47,912 nucleotides of DNA, taken from positions 1-47,912 of the forward strand of contig JAFZDQ010000100.1 of NCBI GenBank assembly GCA_017561085.1. The letters run 5' to 3'. This DNA comes from Lachnospiraceae bacterium (GTDB taxonomy: Bacteria; Bacillota; Clostridia; Lachnospirales; Lachnospiraceae). Both the position numbers and the translations under genes were made by a program. This document shows, piece after piece, positions 18,481 through 44,527 of this stretch. Below the pieces are notes generated by a model, which was not told where the DNA came from, searched no databases, and worked only from the letters and a program-made list of their open reading frames with translations. Each line of letters begins with the position of its first letter. Within the stretch, counting starts at the first letter, position 1.

Positions 18481-18739
18481 AAATAACATGAGAAAAGCAA
18501 TGACGGAAAGAGTAGTTTGCGGGAATCATCCAGAGAGAGTGGCAGTTTGGTGGAAGTCACTTATGAAGAAAGCTTACGAAAACCATTCCCGAGCTGTAAT
18601 ACCTAAAACGAAAGTTATTAAGTATTACCGTAAGCCCGCGTTAAGGGATAAGATTTGTTGGAATCTGAAGTGAAAAGTTAAGGTGGAACCGTGCACAATG
18701 CACCCTTAGATTACTGTATAGTAATCTAAGGGTTTTTTT
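18481..18739 (+). promoter_or_regulatory. Threonine T-box riboswitch with intrinsic terminator
   Basis: The leader shows T-box landmarks. CGGGAAT (18520-18526) pairs with ATTCCCG (18585-18591) at the stem I specifier region, leaving ACC (18582-18584, a Thr codon) followed by A, the expected specifier layout. The distal stem I has the AGAGAG motif at about 18533. The T-box proper, AGGTGGAACCGTG, is at 18681-18693; its TGGA bulge fits a tRNA ending in UCCA. The terminator is a 13-bp stem (18703-18715/18720-18732) with loop GTAT and seven T residues. CACCCTTA (18701-18708) can pair with the TAAGGTG segment to form the antiterminator instead. Uncharged tRNA-Thr should therefore turn on thrS. Confidence 0.93.
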
Positions 18740-39186: not shown

Positions 39187-40131
39187 ATGAAATATATTAA
39201 AGACTATAAAGAAGGCGACAGAATTTCGGATGTTTATCTTTGTAAGTTTAAATCCTCTGCCGTTACCAAAAACGGAAAACCTTATGACAACGTAATATTA
39301 CAGGATAAAACAGGTACTATCGATGCCAAGATCTGGGATCCAAACAGTGCCGGAATTGCAGAGTTTGATGCCTTGGATTATATTGATGTGTTTGGAGATA
39401 TTACCAGCTTCCAGGGTGCTTTGCAGGTGAATGTAAAGAGAATCCGCAAGTGCCAGGAGGGGGAATATAATCCTGCAGATTATCTGCCTGTAAGTAAATA
39501 TGATATTGAAGAGATGTACAGTGAGCTGCTTGGCTATATCGGCAAGATTGAAAATACTTATTTGAAACAGCTTCTTCAGGCGTTTTTTGTAGAAGATGAG
39601 GACTTTATCAAAGCGTTTAAGAAGTCTTCCGCAGCGAAGACAGTACACCACGGTTTCGTGGGAGGTCTTTTGCAGCACACCCTTTGTGTCACCAGACTTT
39701 GTCTGTTTTATTGTAAGGCTTATCCCCGCCTGAATAAGGATTTACTGATTAGTGCGGCGATTTGTCATGATATGGGAAAGATTAAGGAATTATCTTTTTT
39801 CCCGGAAAATGACTACACCGACGACGGACAGTTTCTTGGCCATATCGTAATGGGCGTTGAGATGGTAGGTGAGAAAATCCGCCAGATTCCCGGATTCCCC
39901 GGCATTTTGGCAAGTGAGTTAAAGCATTGTATCCTGGCGCACCACGGAGAGTATGAGTTCGGTTCTCCCAAGAAACCCGCCATCATGGAGGCTGTGGCAC
40001 TGAATTTTGCGGATAATACGGATGCGAAGATGCAGACCTTTACGGAACTGATGGAAAACACTTCGGAAGCAGGCTGGCTTGGATTTAACCGTTTGTTTGA
40101 TTCCAATGTCAGAAGCACGAAGGTGGAGTAA
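39187..40131 (+). CDS. YhaM-like 3'-5' exoribonuclease (OB fold plus HD domain)
   Basis: A 314-aa protein with an N-terminal OB-fold nucleic-acid-binding domain (VILQDKTGTIDAKIWDP) and an HD hydrolase domain: HHGFVGGLLQHTL, AAICHDMGKIKEL (the HD pair), and HHGEYEFGSPKKPAIMEA. This matches YhaM of B. subtilis, a 3'-5' exonuclease of RNA and single-stranded DNA. It follows the HtrA-like gene by 34 bp. Confidence 0.92.
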   Translation: MKYIKDYKEGDRISDVYLCKFKSSAVTKNGKPYDNVILQDKTGTIDAKIWDPNSAGIAEFDALDYIDVFGDITSFQGALQVNVKRIRKCQEGEYNPADYLPVSKYDIEEMYSELLGYIGKIENTYLKQLLQAFFVEDEDFIKAFKKSSAAKTVHHGFVGGLLQHTLCVTRLCLFYCKAYPRLNKDLLISAAICHDMGKIKELSFFPENDYTDDGQFLGHIVMGVEMVGEKIRQIPGFPGILASELKHCILAHHGEYEFGSPKKPAIMEAVALNFADNTDAKMQTFTELMENTSEAGWLGFNRLFDSNVRSTKVE

Positions 40132-40200
40132 GTGGTTGAAATGAAAGCATGAAGACGACCCACGGCGGAATTCGCGGCGGGCGCAAGAGAGAGTATACAC

Positions 40201-41715
40201 ATGGAATTTCAAAAAAATGACTATGTAATCGTGACTATCGAAGATATCGGTCACGACGGCGAGGGCATCGGTAAGGTAGACGGTTTCACCCTTTTTATCA
40301 AAGATGCCGTTATCGGCGATGTGGTAGAAGCCAAGATTATGAAAAGTAAAAAGCATTATGCTTATGCGCGTTTAGAGAAGGTGATTACACCTTCTCCTTT
40401 TCGCATTGAGCCCAAATGTGCTCTTCATAAGCAGTGCGGCGGCTGTCAGATTCAGGCCATGAGCTATGAAAAACAGCTGCAGTTCAAAGAAGCGAAAATC
40501 AGGAATAATTTAATCCGTATCGGCGGTTTTGCGCCGGAATTCGTGGATAAGGTGATGGAGCCTATCGTGGGAATGGAGGAGCCCTTCCGTTACCGGAACA
40601 AGGCCCAGTATCCCATCGGAACGGACAAGGAAGGAAACCCCATTGCCGGCTTTTATGCGGGAAGGACCCATTCCATTATCGCCAATACGGACTGCTACTT
40701 GGGCGTGGAAGAAAATAAAGAAATCCTGGAAATCATCCTGGATTATATGAAGAAAAATAAAGTAAGTGCCTACGATGAAACCACCGGAAAAGGCTTGGTG
40801 CGTCACGTGCTGATCCGCAAGGGCTTTACCAGCGGCGAGCTGATGGTTTGCCTGGTGGTGAATGATAAAGGGAAGAAAAATGCGGCTGATTTTAATGCCG
40901 GTCGGAAAGGAATGTATTTGCCGGCGCAGGACAAGTTAGTGGAGGCCCTGCAGCTACTTCCCGGCATGACCAGTATTTCCGTCAGCATCAATGCGGAAAA
41001 TACCAATGTCATCATGGGCAAGGAAGTACACACCATTTGGGGAGAAGACCGGATTAGAGACACCATCCATGTGCGGGATACCGTAAACGGTTTTGCCCTG
41101 ACGGAGAAGGGGATTACTTTTTCCATTTCCCCTTTGTCCTTTTATCAGGTGAATCCCGTGCAAACCGAAAAATTGTACAGTTTAGCACTTGCCTACGCAG
41201 GACTTACCGGCAAGGAAACAGTGTGGGATCTTTACTGCGGAATCGGAACCATATCCCTGTTTTTGGCTGGGGATGCGAAGCAGGTTTACGGCGTGGAAAT
41301 CGTACCCCAGGCCATCGGGGACGCCAAGAAAAACGCTGAAAATAACGGTATCACTAACGCAGAATTTTTCGTAGGAAAGGCAGAGGAAGTGCTTCCTGAA
41401 AAATATGAAAAGGAAGGCATTTTTGCGGATGTAATTGTGGTAGATCCGCCCCGGAAGGGCTGTGATGAGGCCTGCCTTGCGACTATGCTGAAAATGCAGC
41501 CTAAAAGGATTGTTTATGTAAGCTGCGACAGCGCTACTTTGGCGAGAGATTTGAAGATTTTAAGCGACGGCGGCTATGAGCTTAAGAAGGTGCGGGGCGT
41601 GGACCAGTTCGGACATACCGTGCATGTAGAGGTTGCCACTTATCTTGAAAAGAAGAAAAAACCGATTAGCTACCGGGAGGAAGAAATTCCCGAGTGCGGT
41701 TGTATTTATGGGTAA
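40201..41715 (+). CDS. rlmD: RlmD/RumA-type 23S rRNA (uracil-C5)-methyltransferase
   Basis: A 504-aa TrmA-family protein: N-terminal TRAM domain (about 1-65), iron-sulfur cysteines CALHKQC-GGC and a later NTDC, a central domain, and a SAM-dependent methyltransferase domain with DLYCGIGTISLFLA, VDPPRKG and the catalytic-cysteine motif VSCDSATLARDL. It should methylate a uracil of 23S rRNA (U1939 in E. coli), though related enzymes act on U747 or tRNA U54. Weak GAGAG ribosome-binding site. It ends a group of translation/RNA genes. Confidence 0.9.
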   Translation: MEFQKNDYVIVTIEDIGHDGEGIGKVDGFTLFIKDAVIGDVVEAKIMKSKKHYAYARLEKVITPSPFRIEPKCALHKQCGGCQIQAMSYEKQLQFKEAKIRNNLIRIGGFAPEFVDKVMEPIVGMEEPFRYRNKAQYPIGTDKEGNPIAGFYAGRTHSIIANTDCYLGVEENKEILEIILDYMKKNKVSAYDETTGKGLVRHVLIRKGFTSGELMVCLVVNDKGKKNAADFNAGRKGMYLPAQDKLVEALQLLPGMTSISVSINAENTNVIMGKEVHTIWGEDRIRDTIHVRDTVNGFALTEKGITFSISPLSFYQVNPVQTEKLYSLALAYAGLTGKETVWDLYCGIGTISLFLAGDAKQVYGVEIVPQAIGDAKKNAENNGITNAEFFVGKAEEVLPEKYEKEGIFADVIVVDPPRKGCDEACLATMLKMQPKRIVYVSCDSATLARDLKILSDGGYELKKVRGVDQFGHTVHVEVATYLEKKKKPISYREEEIPECGCIYG

Positions 41716-41860
41716 AATATATTGAAGAGTGATACTTAGATAAAGTAATGTGTGTGCAGTTGTTTGATTTTGAAATTTTAGCTCATTTAATTTGTAATTA
41801 ATGTAGTTATAATTATTAAATAGCAAGTCATAGCATATACTATAGTAGCTGTAAAAATTG

Positions 41861-41890
41861 CTTGACATGAAGTTTATAGTCAAGTAAGAT
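41861..41890 (+). promoter_or_regulatory. Promoter of the AbiF-associated RNA, overlapping an inverted repeat
   Basis: TTGACA (41862-41867) and TAAGAT (41885-41890) are separated by exactly 17 bp. CTTGAC (41861-41866) and GTCAAG (41879-41884) form an inverted repeat that covers the -35 box and runs up to the -10 box, a natural operator position. Confidence 0.75.
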
Positions 41891-41896
41891 TAAGAC

Positions 41897-41964
41897 AGTG
41901 ATCGCGTTGCAGAAACCTGTGAGGCCTGCGACCGGGGGAGAACCTGCGGGGTCTCCTCTTTTTT
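41897..41964 (+). ncRNA. Small structured RNA upstream of abiF (probable RNA antitoxin)
   Basis: About 68 nt, from the predicted start to the last T of the terminator. First hairpin: GTTGCAG (41906-41912) with CTGCGAC (41926-41932), internal AAA/C loop, then CCT/AGG (41916-41918/41922-41924) capped by GTG. Second hairpin: 41935-41944 with 41949-41958 (loop TGCG, one A-G mismatch, one G-U pair), followed by six T residues: an intrinsic terminator. The CCTGCG word occurs in both hairpins (41925-41930 and 41943-41948). It ends 20 bp before the abiF start. A conserved abiF RNA motif upstream of Abi_2 genes is known from comparative genomics; identity with that motif is inferred from position and shape. 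Confidence 0.78.
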
Positions 41965-41984
41965 ACTTTAAGGAGACATTGTAG

Positions 41985-42926
41985 ATGCCAAAGATTTTTT
42001 TGAGTTATGATCAGCAAATAGACAAATTGAAGAATGAGAAAAATCTGCAAATTGATGATGATACATATGCCAGGGAGATTTTAAAGCAGACAAGCTACTA
42101 TTCATTAATTGGAGGATATAAGGATATCTTTAAAAATCCAACAACCAAGAAGTACAAGGATGGAGCGAGATTTGAGGATATTGTAGAGTTATATTATTTT
42201 GATGAATCTTTAAGGCAGTTGCTTTTGAGATATCTTATTAAAGTAGAAAATGAAATAAAGTCACAAGTCTCTTACTATTTTACAGAGAAGAATGGCGAGA
42301 ATCAAAAGGAATATCTTGATACTGCAAATTACAATTATGTAGGTAAGAAAAATCAAAGAGATATTGACCGTTTAATAAATATATTAGAGGGGTATGTTAC
42401 AAAGCCGACAGATTATCATTACATAAATCATGCACAGAGAAAATATGGAAATGTTCCGTTATGGGTACTGACAAATGCATTGACATTTGGAAATATCTCA
42501 AAAATGTATATGCTGCTTCCGCAGGATATACAGATTAAAGTCAGCAGGAATTATCCGTGCATCAATGAACGTCAAATGATATCCATTTTGGCTGTAATGG
42601 TTAAATTCAGAAATGTCTGTGCCCATGGTGAACGATTATTTACTTATAGAACTACCGACAGTATTCCAGATTTACCGTTACATATGAAATTAAAGATCGC
42701 TCAAAAAGGCACACAATATGTGAATGGAAAAAATGATTTGTTCTCGGTTGTGATTGCTTTAAGATATATGCTGAGTGATAGTTGGTACAAGGAATTTATA
42801 AAAGAACTTAAAGCACTAATTGATAAGTACCTTAAGAAGCATGATAGTATTACAGAACAAGAGTTATATGAGAAAATGGGTTTTCCAGAAAACTGGCGAA
42901 AAATAACCAGATACAGAAAACAATAA
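41985..42926 (+). CDS. abiF: AbiF/AbiD-type abortive infection protein (Abi_2, HEPN)
   Basis: A 313-aa Abi_2 family protein. It has the family N-terminus (TSYYSLIGGYKDIF, residues 36-49), a helical middle with YLIKVENEIKSQVSYYF, the conserved PLWVLTNALTFGNISKMYMLLP (158-179), and the HEPN nuclease motif Arg209-Asn-Val-Cys-Ala-His214 (R-x4-H) followed by GERLF. Such proteins are RNA-cleaving toxins in phage defence. The ribosome-binding site AAGGAG is nine bases before ATG. Base composition is more AT-rich than neighbouring core genes, as expected for transferred defence genes. It is preceded by its RNA and followed by a terminator, so it is a self-contained unit. Confidence 0.9.
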   Translation: MPKIFLSYDQQIDKLKNEKNLQIDDDTYAREILKQTSYYSLIGGYKDIFKNPTTKKYKDGARFEDIVELYYFDESLRQLLLRYLIKVENEIKSQVSYYFTEKNGENQKEYLDTANYNYVGKKNQRDIDRLINILEGYVTKPTDYHYINHAQRKYGNVPLWVLTNALTFGNISKMYMLLPQDIQIKVSRNYPCINERQMISILAVMVKFRNVCAHGERLFTYRTTDSIPDLPLHMKLKIAQKGTQYVNGKNDLFSVVIALRYMLSDSWYKEFIKELKALIDKYLKKHDSITEQELYEKMGFPENWRKITRYRKQ

Positions 42927-42949
42927 AATATAGAATGACTGAAATCAAG

Positions 42950-42979
42950 CCTCCAAGTCCTAAAAGATTTGGAGGTTTT
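42950..42979 (+). terminator. Terminator after abiF
   Basis: CCTCCAA (42950-42956) pairs with TTGGAGG (42969-42975), followed by TTTT. It closes the AbiF locus. Confidence 0.7.
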
Positions 42980-43026
42980 CTTCTACCCATTTTTAGAGGA
43001 AAGTAATTTCCGAAACAAACAATCTA

Positions 43027-43292
43027 TGGTACAATATCCTAGAAGTTATCAACGGGATAAGCGGATCATAGAGAAAGAGCAGAACACAAATCACCCATAA
43101 GCCAGTCCGGCTTATATCTCAAAAACAAATCTAATCTTTTTCTATGGCAGGTGCAAAGAGATGCAGCATGCTGATTTTTGCAGGTCCGGCAGGGGACTGT
43201 TGCATCATTTTAGAACCCAAACTTGACGAATAAGTCATGGGATGTGCATCTTTATTGTGCACTCATGGCATGTGGAGACGGTATGCTTATTG
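43027..43292 (+). ncRNA. Candidate structured RNA or long structured leader before the lipoprotein gene
   Basis: An extended -10 element, TGGTACAAT (43027-43035), would start RNA near 43041. The next 250 nt contain no gene but many local pairings: ATAAGCC/GGCTTAT (43097-43103/43109-43115), GATGCA/TGCATC (43160-43165/43201-43206) enclosing CA-GTCC/GGAC-TG (43181-43187/43194-43199), GTGCA/TGCAC (43244-43248/43258-43262), and a possible closing ATAAGC/GCTTAT (43057-43062/43285-43290). No terminator follows before the ATG at 43316. I cannot assign it to a known RNA class with confidence. Confidence 0.4.
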
Positions 43293-43315
43293 TCCAAACA
43301 GTAGAAAGGGAAACA

Positions 43316-44527
43316 ATGATAAAGAAAAAAATATTAACTGTTCTTATTTTTTTGGTTTTTACAGTGTTATTTATCGCATGTGAGAACGAGGAGCAGATTG
43401 TAGAAGAGGTAGTTGCAACAGAAGATTTGTCTTCGGAGATAAGTGATGAACAGACATTAGAGTCAGATATTGAAGAAGATGAATTTAGAGCTTTGGTAAA
43501 AAGCATGCTAAATCTTTCATGCGATGAGGTGATAGAAAAATCGGAATGGATTGAAGAGAAAGTTTGTTATAGGGTAGCCGTGGAACGTACCACTGAAGTT
43601 GAGGGCGAGTATAAACATTTGACAGATTACATATTTGTAAAGAATGAAACTGTAAAATGTATTAAAGTAACATATCCTTCCAAGCATGATACGATGGATG
43701 CAGACCGGTATGTTTATGATGCATGTGATTTTGCAGTCAGATATGAGGACATAACTTTTGACGGACAGAAAGATATTGTTATTTCGCTTGGACATCAGGG
43801 AACGGCAGGTACTTGCGTTTCATGTGCTTATGTTTTTGAAGAAAATGATTATGTTTATGTCAAATCTTTGGAACAAATTCCGAATTACTCGCTGAATGAG
43901 GAACAAAAATGTATTGATGGTTTCTATAAGGATGAAACTTTTCAATATCATTTTTGGAATGGAGAATTTGTTGAATTGAAGCAGGATATTTCTAAACCTG
44001 CACTTTCAAAAGAAACAATTGACAGTTACGGTTATGTAGACGGATATTCCGTTTTGAGATTTAATATTGTACCACAGACAGTAGTAGAATATGATGAATT
44101 CTATGTGGTAGATGCGGTTTATACACAGCCGATAGAAGTTCCGGCAAATCTGGCCATTGGAGAACAGATAACAGTGGTTGTTAATGAATTAACCGGTGAA
44201 CAGAGGACTCTCGAACGTAGGGATGATGGTCTTTATCAACTTGAGGTCAATGAGAATGAGCCGTACTATCCGACTTATTTCAGGTATTTTGATAGTGAAG
44301 GTGGTACAACAATAACTTTGATTGACGAAAATTCGGATTGTGTTGACAAAGTTGTTTTTGAAGGAAAGTTGTATGTTCGAAAAGATGCTACGATTGAGTC
44401 AACATTTGACTCTAAAATAGAAGAAGCGACCAAAGAAAACCTCAACAGTAAATATTCCATGGTTTATAACAATGTTTATTTTGATGAAAACGGATATGTA
44501 ACACGGCTTGTATCTATAGGAGATTAG
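43316..44527 (+). CDS. Putative lipoprotein of unknown function
   Basis: A 403-aa protein. The start is ATG 43316, five bases after GAAAGGG; the frame extends upstream but without a ribosome-binding site. It begins MIKKKILTVLIFLVFTVLFIAC, a signal peptide with lipobox-like FIAC (Cys22). Next is an acidic linker, then a region with DITFDGQKDIVISLGHQG, resembling the calcium-binding FG-GAP/VCBS-type turn, and a beta-rich C-terminal half. No family recognised beyond this. The gene is accessory-like in composition. Confidence 0.75.
   Translation: MIKKKILTVLIFLVFTVLFIACENEEQIVEEVVATEDLSSEISDEQTLESDIEEDEFRALVKSMLNLSCDEVIEKSEWIEEKVCYRVAVERTTEVEGEYKHLTDYIFVKNETVKCIKVTYPSKHDTMDADRYVYDACDFAVRYEDITFDGQKDIVISLGHQGTAGTCVSCAYVFEENDYVYVKSLEQIPNYSLNEEQKCIDGFYKDETFQYHFWNGEFVELKQDISKPALSKETIDSYGYVDGYSVLRFNIVPQTVVEYDEFYVVDAVYTQPIEVPANLAIGEQITVVVNELTGEQRTLERRDDGLYQLEVNENEPYYPTYFRYFDSEGGTTITLIDENSDCVDKVVFEGKLYVRKDATIESTFDSKIEEATKENLNSKYSMVYNNVYFDENGYVTRLVSIGD

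Follow-up and report, generated by a model that had tools for sequence, protein, structure and literature searches.

In the 47,912-nt stretch of DNA from a gut bacterium of the Lachnospiraceae analysed here (the window), a gene coding for an AbiF/AbiD-like protein is preceded by a small structured RNA, and this unit can be read, with a probability of roughly 85%, as a chromosomal type III toxin-antitoxin (abortive infection) system. By analogy with characterised relatives, the RNA, for which the label "R1" was coined in this analysis, is most likely the antitoxin of AbiF. At the level of sequence, the arrangement is that of a type III system: a small RNA gene with a promoter and a terminator is situated just 5' of a putative toxin gene. 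AbiF-RNA units as such are already known, and a type III toxin-antitoxin system of this kind was reported as demonstrated in C. difficile in 2025 (PMC12373285). Of interest here are the uncatalogued RNA class R1 and the testable hypothesis that toxin-free copies of AbiF antitoxin RNAs serve phages as decoys.

Organization of the R1-abiF unit

The elements of the unit (Table 1) were found where the initial annotation had placed them: a promoter is followed by a two-hairpin RNA ending in a U-tract and, after a spacing of 20 nt, by the Abi_2 gene. Its identification of the 5' neighbour as rlmD is likewise borne out by the score against TIGR00479. The promoter had been called a good one. Taken alone, the site is not significant, as a consensus-promoter scan of positions 41500-43300 yielded no excess (6 found vs. 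6.9 expected from shuffles). What speaks for it, however, is its 10/12 agreement with the consensus together with its conservation: among 53 R1 hits followed by an intact AbiF (window counted in, without deduplication), 51 have a site with at least 9/12 matches within 50 nt 5' of the RNA, compared with 8.3% of shuffles. This promoter would drive the R1 RNA and, by read-through, presumably abiF as well.

The view of the unit as compact and self-contained agrees with the observation that its neighbours differ between relatives. In a comparison of 24 loci (L002 being the same place as L034), a methyltransferase gene of RlmD/RlmC type was found 5' of the R1-abiF unit in the window as well as in five relatives (L034, L037, L041, L031, L043). 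The methyltransferase neighbours belong to two different paralogues (62-79% and 37-41% identity), and the 3' side of an RlmD/RlmC-type gene is perhaps a preferred insertion site of the unit.

Table 1. Features of the R1-abiF unit in the window and positions of solo R1 copies in phage tRNA arrays.
Feature	Sequence	Position	Strand	Basis or remark
rlmD, 5' neighbour outside the unit	window	40201..41715	+	TIGR00479, 430.1 bits (cut-off 183.55)
Sigma-A-type promoter, TTGACA-17-TAAGAT	window	41862..41890	+	10/12 consensus; conserved in relatives
Small RNA of class R1 (proposed antitoxin), 68 nt	window	41897..41964	+	ends predicted from promoter and U-tract
Hairpin 1 (stem of 7 bp, then an internal loop and a tip drawn as GNGA tetraloop or triloop)	window	41906..41932	+	21-sequence alignment
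Intrinsic terminator: hairpin 2 (41935-41958) and T6 (41959-41964)	window	41935..41964	+	sequence, folding, covariation
Ribosome-binding site AAGGAG	window	41970..41975	+	sequence
abiF/abiD-like gene, 313 aa, Abi_2 family (putative toxin)	window	41985..42926	+	Pfam, PADLOC, PDB 8vz6; ATG at 41985
Codons of RNVCAH (R209-x4-H214)	window	42609..42626	+	alignment of 10 proteins; 8vz6 alignment
Solo R1 in phage tRNA array	L158	202-269		
Solo R1 in phage tRNA array	L171	5598-5665		
Solo R1 in phage tRNA array	L165	2473-2540		
Solo R1 in phage tRNA array	L169	5227-5294		
Solo R1 in phage tRNA array	L170	4092-4159		

The AbiF protein

Profile searches support the earlier assignment of the protein to the AbiD/F (Abi_2) family and the presence of a HEPN motif, as judged from its sequence. 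It matches the Pfam family Abi_2 (PF07751) with an E-value of 2e-47 (162.3 bits, cut-off 25.6) and the PADLOC model AbiD with 4.8e-67; a search of the NCBIfam models against it gave no match. The motif RNVCAH at residues 209-214 is the sole R-x4-6-H motif of the protein, and R209, N210, C212, A213 and H214 are unchanged in all ten aligned proteins. A PDB search at E<=1 returned two sequences, of which 8vz6 (PbAbiF) alone gave a convincing match, covering residues 3-305 with E 3.7e-11. The residues R209 and H214 are aligned with R210 and H215 of 8vz6, and the double change of these two residues is reported to inactivate PbAbiF (PMC12373285). The genome to which the window belongs holds one Abi_2 gene.

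Structure and identity of the R1 RNA

A structured RNA of about 70 nt with its own transcriptional signals had been postulated upstream of the gene, and this proposal stands: the predicted RNA of 68 nt combines a conserved promoter, a covarying two-hairpin structure and a terminator. Its folding energy (-27.2 kcal/mol, z -1.79) is modest against shuffles, and hairpin 2 with T6 was not among the calls of a terminator scan. The comparison of homologous loci is more informative. Among 21 distinct sequences, 97.6% of the cells of the whole structure are paired, while shuffles reached 88.0 +/- 0.9% and slid controls no more than 57.1%; 11 of the 16 pairs show changes on both sides. The hairpin-1 stem is paired in 100% of cells with five of its seven pairs changed on both sides. 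Its tip can be drawn as a GNGA tetraloop (95.2% paired, two pairs, neither changed on both sides) or as a triloop (92.1% paired, three pairs, two changed on both sides).

The suggested assignment to the known abiF RNA motif failed. The covariance model RF03085 gave no match over the window at its gathering threshold (37 bits), nor over positions 41700-42020 at E<=10, and the abiF RNA of Rfam was accordingly rejected as the identity of R1. More generally, no family of Rfam 15 reaches its cut-off over 41897-41964; the best weak match, Listeria sbrA (18.7 bits vs. a cut-off of 45, E 0.19), was taken as chance. A covariance model built for R1 scores the window RNA at 92.5 bits, the window being one of its building sequences, and matched none of the RF03085-type loci searched. 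Conversely, RF03085 matched none of the R1 carriers among 15 loci (0/6), in viral records (0/8) or in phage records (0/2). R1 is a distinct covarying RNA class that is absent from the Rfam catalogue.

The RNA had been proposed as either antitoxin or guide. Of the two, the antitoxin is the most likely. The idea of a guide leading AbiF to phage RNA, in a state ancestral to Cas13, can draw on the grouping of AbiD/F with HEPN domains from ancestral Cas13 and on the proposal of RNA guidance before Cas13 (PMC12165695), but R1 contains no variable stretch: 7 of 16 close loci (window counted in) have the same 66 nt, and at about 50% protein identity the loop residues are kept while the stems change in a compensated manner. 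Furthermore, direct repeats of at least 20 nt (families within 400 nt) were absent from positions 40000-44500, leaving no repeat array beside the gene, and a review describes AbiF as being without RNA-targeting specificity (PMC12948488). A guide function of R1 is therefore hardly probable at all.

Proposed mode of action and comparison with known systems

From one promoter, a short RNA would be transcribed that mostly ends at hairpin 2 and the U-tract. As in characterised relatives, rare read-through past the terminator would provide the abiF mRNA, and the RNA would bind the AbiF dimer and hold its shared HEPN site shut. Disturbance of transcription or of RNA stability, for example by a phage, would then lower the RNA level, and freed AbiF would cut RNA and stop growth; this presumed RNase activity is likewise taken from relatives, the local protein contributing the motif. 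Gene order, homology, the catalytic motif, RNA covariation and the adherence of the RNA class to a protein clade (see below) are observed here. As R1 is not RF03085, its proposed role as antitoxin is modelled on relatives whose RNA differs.

The closest functional precedent is RCd22-AbiFCd of the C. difficile prophage phi027, which shares the order of promoter, small structured RNA, terminator and Abi_2 HEPN gene with R-x4-H, and in which RCd22 is reported to neutralise AbiF in cis and in trans via direct binding (PMC12373285). There, two RF03085 motifs occur in an RNA of 132 nt (major form 98 nt) within a prophage lysis module (PMC12373285), whereas the window contains a single 68-nt R1 in a chromosomal setting. 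The window protein shares 29% identity with AbiF of phiC2, a related phage. PbAbiF-AbiFr from a Prevotellaceae bacterium (PDB 8vz6; PMC12737573; PMC12373285) has a homologous protein with aligned catalytic arginine and histidine, a likeness seen at the level of the protein. The RF03085 abiF RNA is similarly a small hairpin RNA located before Abi_2 genes and, in phages, also without them, but differs from R1 in its length of 37 nt, its 6-nt 3' bulge and its 11-nt loop, and the two showed no cross-match in the searches run. Cas13 of type VI CRISPR systems is a HEPN RNase related to AbiD/F (PMC12165695); unlike Cas13 systems, the window unit has no repeat array, no variable guide and one R-x4-6-H motif in its protein.

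RNA classes across AbiF relatives

At E<=1e-20, relatives of the window protein turned up in 32 genomes out of 144 related ones, and 20 loci were collected from named genomes, most of them titled Lachnospiraceae. R1 precedes the gene in close relatives (81-95% identical) with a readable upstream part, in relatives at about 46-61% identity and in one at 40% (L016). In distant relatives (L017-L030 and L047, 28-38% identity), R1 is absent and other small hairpins or none were seen.

In one midpoint-rooted FastTree tree of AbiF, all 25 R1-linked proteins form a single clade (support 0.94) that includes no AbiF of another RNA class; a sequence pattern labelled 22 of them, while the remaining three (L006, L007, L068) were recognised as R1-linked by other comparisons. 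Eight proteins linked to RF03085-like RNAs fall into another clade of ten (support 0.51), and three linked to a third RNA (CTCCGG...CCCGG) into a clade of five (support 0.97). The RNA class thus follows the protein clade, and R1 is tied to one AbiF clade. AbiF is reportedly a proposed ancestor of Cas13, and a further RNA class tied to its own AbiF clade would therefore offer a natural series in which to ask how an antitoxin RNA might turn into a guide.

Some loci deserve separate mention. The third small RNA type (CTCCGGTGTCCTTCGGGCCCGG) was seen 5' of Abi_2 at L017, L018 and L020, which belong to another AbiF clade. Two copies of R1 flank abiF at L068 (232-300 and 1322-1390) and L097 (1501-1569 and 2567-2635), and two R1 occur in tandem at L128 (248-383).

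R1 without AbiF in bacterial genomes

The R1 model, run on 397 genomes of the window's family, returned 87 hits scoring 43 bits or more; at E<=0.1, 102 genomes were matched, the weakest perhaps by chance. Across the order, 40 of 392 genomes had a hit at E<=1e-6, of which 33 belong to the window's family and seven to two other families. After omission of G082 and G038:C25 (AbiF loci already included as L013 and L014) and G184 (contig end), 84 hits were classified by their downstream region: 37 are followed by an intact AbiF, 17 by a broken or partial one, 28 by none detected within the 1.5-2.5 kb examined, and two lie at a contig end.

The 17 broken or partial copies are as expected if the AbiF protein is costly. 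Since such copies are common beside R1 in relatives, the local unit could likewise be an inert, decaying remnant. Its open reading frame is intact, however, and the invariant motif, the ribosome-binding site, the promoter and the RNA are all present, which makes this alternative very unlikely.

Many of the 28 solo hits keep the promoter, and the hairpin-1 stem is preserved. A promoter of at least 9/12 is present in 18 of them and missing in ten, while 9.6% of shuffled upstream sequences from the entire AbiF-less group reach this score. In a model-fitted alignment, which is biased towards structure, the hairpin-1 stem is paired in 195/196 cells of the solo hits, 118/119 of those with broken and 259/259 of those with intact AbiF. 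When 22 solo RNAs (20 from this genomic set and two from phages) were aligned freely, 99.3% of the stem cells were paired and six of seven pairs changed on both sides, although some of these paired changes may be older than the loss of the toxin.

These hits also bear on the possibility that R1 acts as a cis-acting leader only, that is, as an attenuator or riboswitch that ends abiF transcription and never works in trans. Its position in the 5' region of abiF and its terminator would fit this idea, and action in cis is also proposed for RCd22 (PMC12373285). A free-standing RNA gene would be useless as a leader, and R1 stands free both in these 28 genomic hits, most of which keep the promoter, and in two phage sequences that hold it between tRNA genes (see below). 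A function restricted to a leader is therefore unlikely. The frequency of R1 without a detectable AbiF also counts to some extent against the antitoxin reading, as the RNA may have a further role.

Toxin-free R1 in phages

A pattern-based scan for R1 in IMG/VR yielded 16 loci, all matched by the R1 model (L159 with only 40.2 bits). A relaxed pattern added 18 viral loci, but the model gave no match at E<=0.01 for any of them. Intact AbiF adjoins R1 at six of the 16 loci (L157, L160-L162, L166, L167). No AbiF was found in the flank examined at the other ten, this flank being short (350-834 nt) in L163, L168 and L172, and a whole-record Abi_2 search of eight of these ten records found none. Two unverified fecal phage contigs in INPHARED carry R1 with AbiF (L067, L068), and a third record (L173) has R1 and a partial AbiF at the contig end. 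Searches of IMG/VR by peptide patterns returned no relative of the window protein; viral relatives at 46-51% identity were reached via the RNA or in INPHARED.

On five contigs representing two R1 sequences (L158/L171 and L165/L169/L170; Table 1), R1 is located between tRNA-Met and tRNA-Arg of a phage tRNA array. These copies have retained the hairpins and lost the U-tract, and both sequences fold well (z -3.4 and -4.0). Genes for terminase, head maturation protease and an exonuclease lie nearby. The exonucleases of the two R1 phage lineages are 36% identical to each other; their closest INPHARED counterparts are found in Geobacillus virus E3 and SPbeta-like Bacillus phages, and a search for possible hosts among 299 genomes of the window's family gave one distant match (28% identity). 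R1 is present at five of 23 loci with a relative of this exonuclease, and three others (L213-L215) show the Met-Arg junction without it.

Toxin-free RF03085 in phages

RF03085 shows a comparable distribution. The cyanophage S-CREM1 was reported with an abiF RNA, and the portion of the report consulted gives no decoy reading (PMC9964418); in the S-CREM1 record, this RNA lies between tRNA-Asn and tRNA-Gly. Scanning IMG/VR for a strict core of the RF03085 motif gave at least 120 loci (L261-L380), though this core is absent from the AbiF-linked RNA of phiC2 and the scan may thus favour solo RNAs. When the RF03085 model was run on 42 IMG/VR records, all matched at E<=0.1 and 38 scored above the cut-off. 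A whole-record Abi_2 search of 80 strict-core viral records among the matches listed, many viral records being fragments, found one with and 79 without Abi_2, while all six R1-linked viral records used as positive controls were found. A local AbiF profile was positive at the same single locus among the 120 matches listed, of which 102 offered 1200 nt or more of downstream sequence. A tRNA lies no more than 25 nt away, and always on the same strand, at 33 of the 120 viral loci among the matches listed; for the first 80 listed, which are not independent (52 distinct 38-mers), the count is 24, compared with 4.7 for random positions in the same loci.

Among isolate phages, blastn with the S-CREM1 stretch at E<=1 returned 15 records of ten phages. 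Nine were examined: S-CREM1, S-SZBM1, S-SRM01, the Aeromonas phages PZL-Ah8, T7-Ah, PZL-Ah152 and AhaP_PT2, Mycobacterium Redno2 and Salicola CGphi29 (records OP535465, OL473597, MW015081, MZ851152, MT740748, MW671054, OM716005, NC_022066 and HQ634153); Salinivibrio CW02, which matched the side stretch only, was left out. RF03085 scores of the nine range from 44.4 to 55.7 bits, and none of their genomes contains Abi_2, while the controls (phiC2 and two fecal contigs) were positive. In S-SZBM1, 4 nt separate the RNA from the tRNA-Ala that follows. The RNA of the four Aeromonas phages occupies a 90-96-nt gap between the connector and capsid-assembly genes and is preceded by the stretch TATAGGGA, which resembles a T7 promoter. 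The stems of the PZL-Ah8 and T7-Ah RNAs differ by one compensated pair.

In bacteria, too, RF03085 hits frequently stand alone: a search gave 15 matches, four of them above the cut-off. AbiF was detected at four of 14 loci, including two of those above the cut-off; the fifteenth match (L065) adjoins L052 and was left out.

Solo RNAs as candidate phage decoys

Two dissimilar antitoxin RNAs that both occur toxin-free in phages and in tRNA arrays suggest counter-defence by RNA mimicry, in analogy to pseudo-ToxI. This phage-borne copy of a type III antitoxin RNA was reported to let PhiTE replicate despite the toxin; there, the system is ToxIN, with another toxin, and the repeats expand under selection (PMC3475682). 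We give even odds to the reading that phages have taken up R1 and RF03085 RNAs as decoys that keep the host AbiF shut. Such RNAs would constitute a widespread natural counter-defence. In tRNA arrays, of which they are often an extra member, they could be freed by the processing of the tRNAs; in T7-like phages, they would follow a late promoter. Solo copies in bacteria may have the same use when AbiF elements arrive from outside.

Several observations count against decoys. Some AbiF-less R1 hits are probably recent remnants, L108 retaining an apparent abiF start, and ten of the 28 genomic solo copies have no 9/12 promoter. The five tRNA-array contigs reduce to just two sequences, and 18 of the 23 related phage loci do not have R1. 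The RF03085 figures may be affected by the strict core, the non-independence of loci and the fragmentary records, and 89 INPHARED records do carry an AbiF relative. As an alternative, solo RNAs could carry another, further role. An origin as remnants of lost systems, in turn, agrees poorly with the tight tRNA arrays and with the location in a 90-96-nt gap of T7-like phages. Among the matches listed from mostly open-access literature, no title or abstract start described a phage-borne abiF RNA as a decoy.

If the solo RNAs are decoys, AbiF defence would be common enough to select an RNA countermeasure in phages as different as T4-like cyanophages, T7-like Aeromonas phages and large phages that carry tRNA arrays. 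A phage tRNA array would then have to be regarded as storing other RNAs besides tRNAs.

Further observations

A solo R1 with a promoter-like stretch occurs beside two small genes in IMG/VR (L163, L164) and in a bacterial genome (L099); these genes look like a RelE/RelB pair. Elsewhere in the window, a T-box leader (RF00230, 104.3 bits) was identified at positions 18491-18710. The window's own genome also contains an RF03085-like RNA on contig C64 (L059, 1501-1537), which at 32.2 bits stays below the cut-off of 37. It lies some 105 nt 5' of an open reading frame (1643-2185) that resembles AbiEi and has no NCBIfam match.
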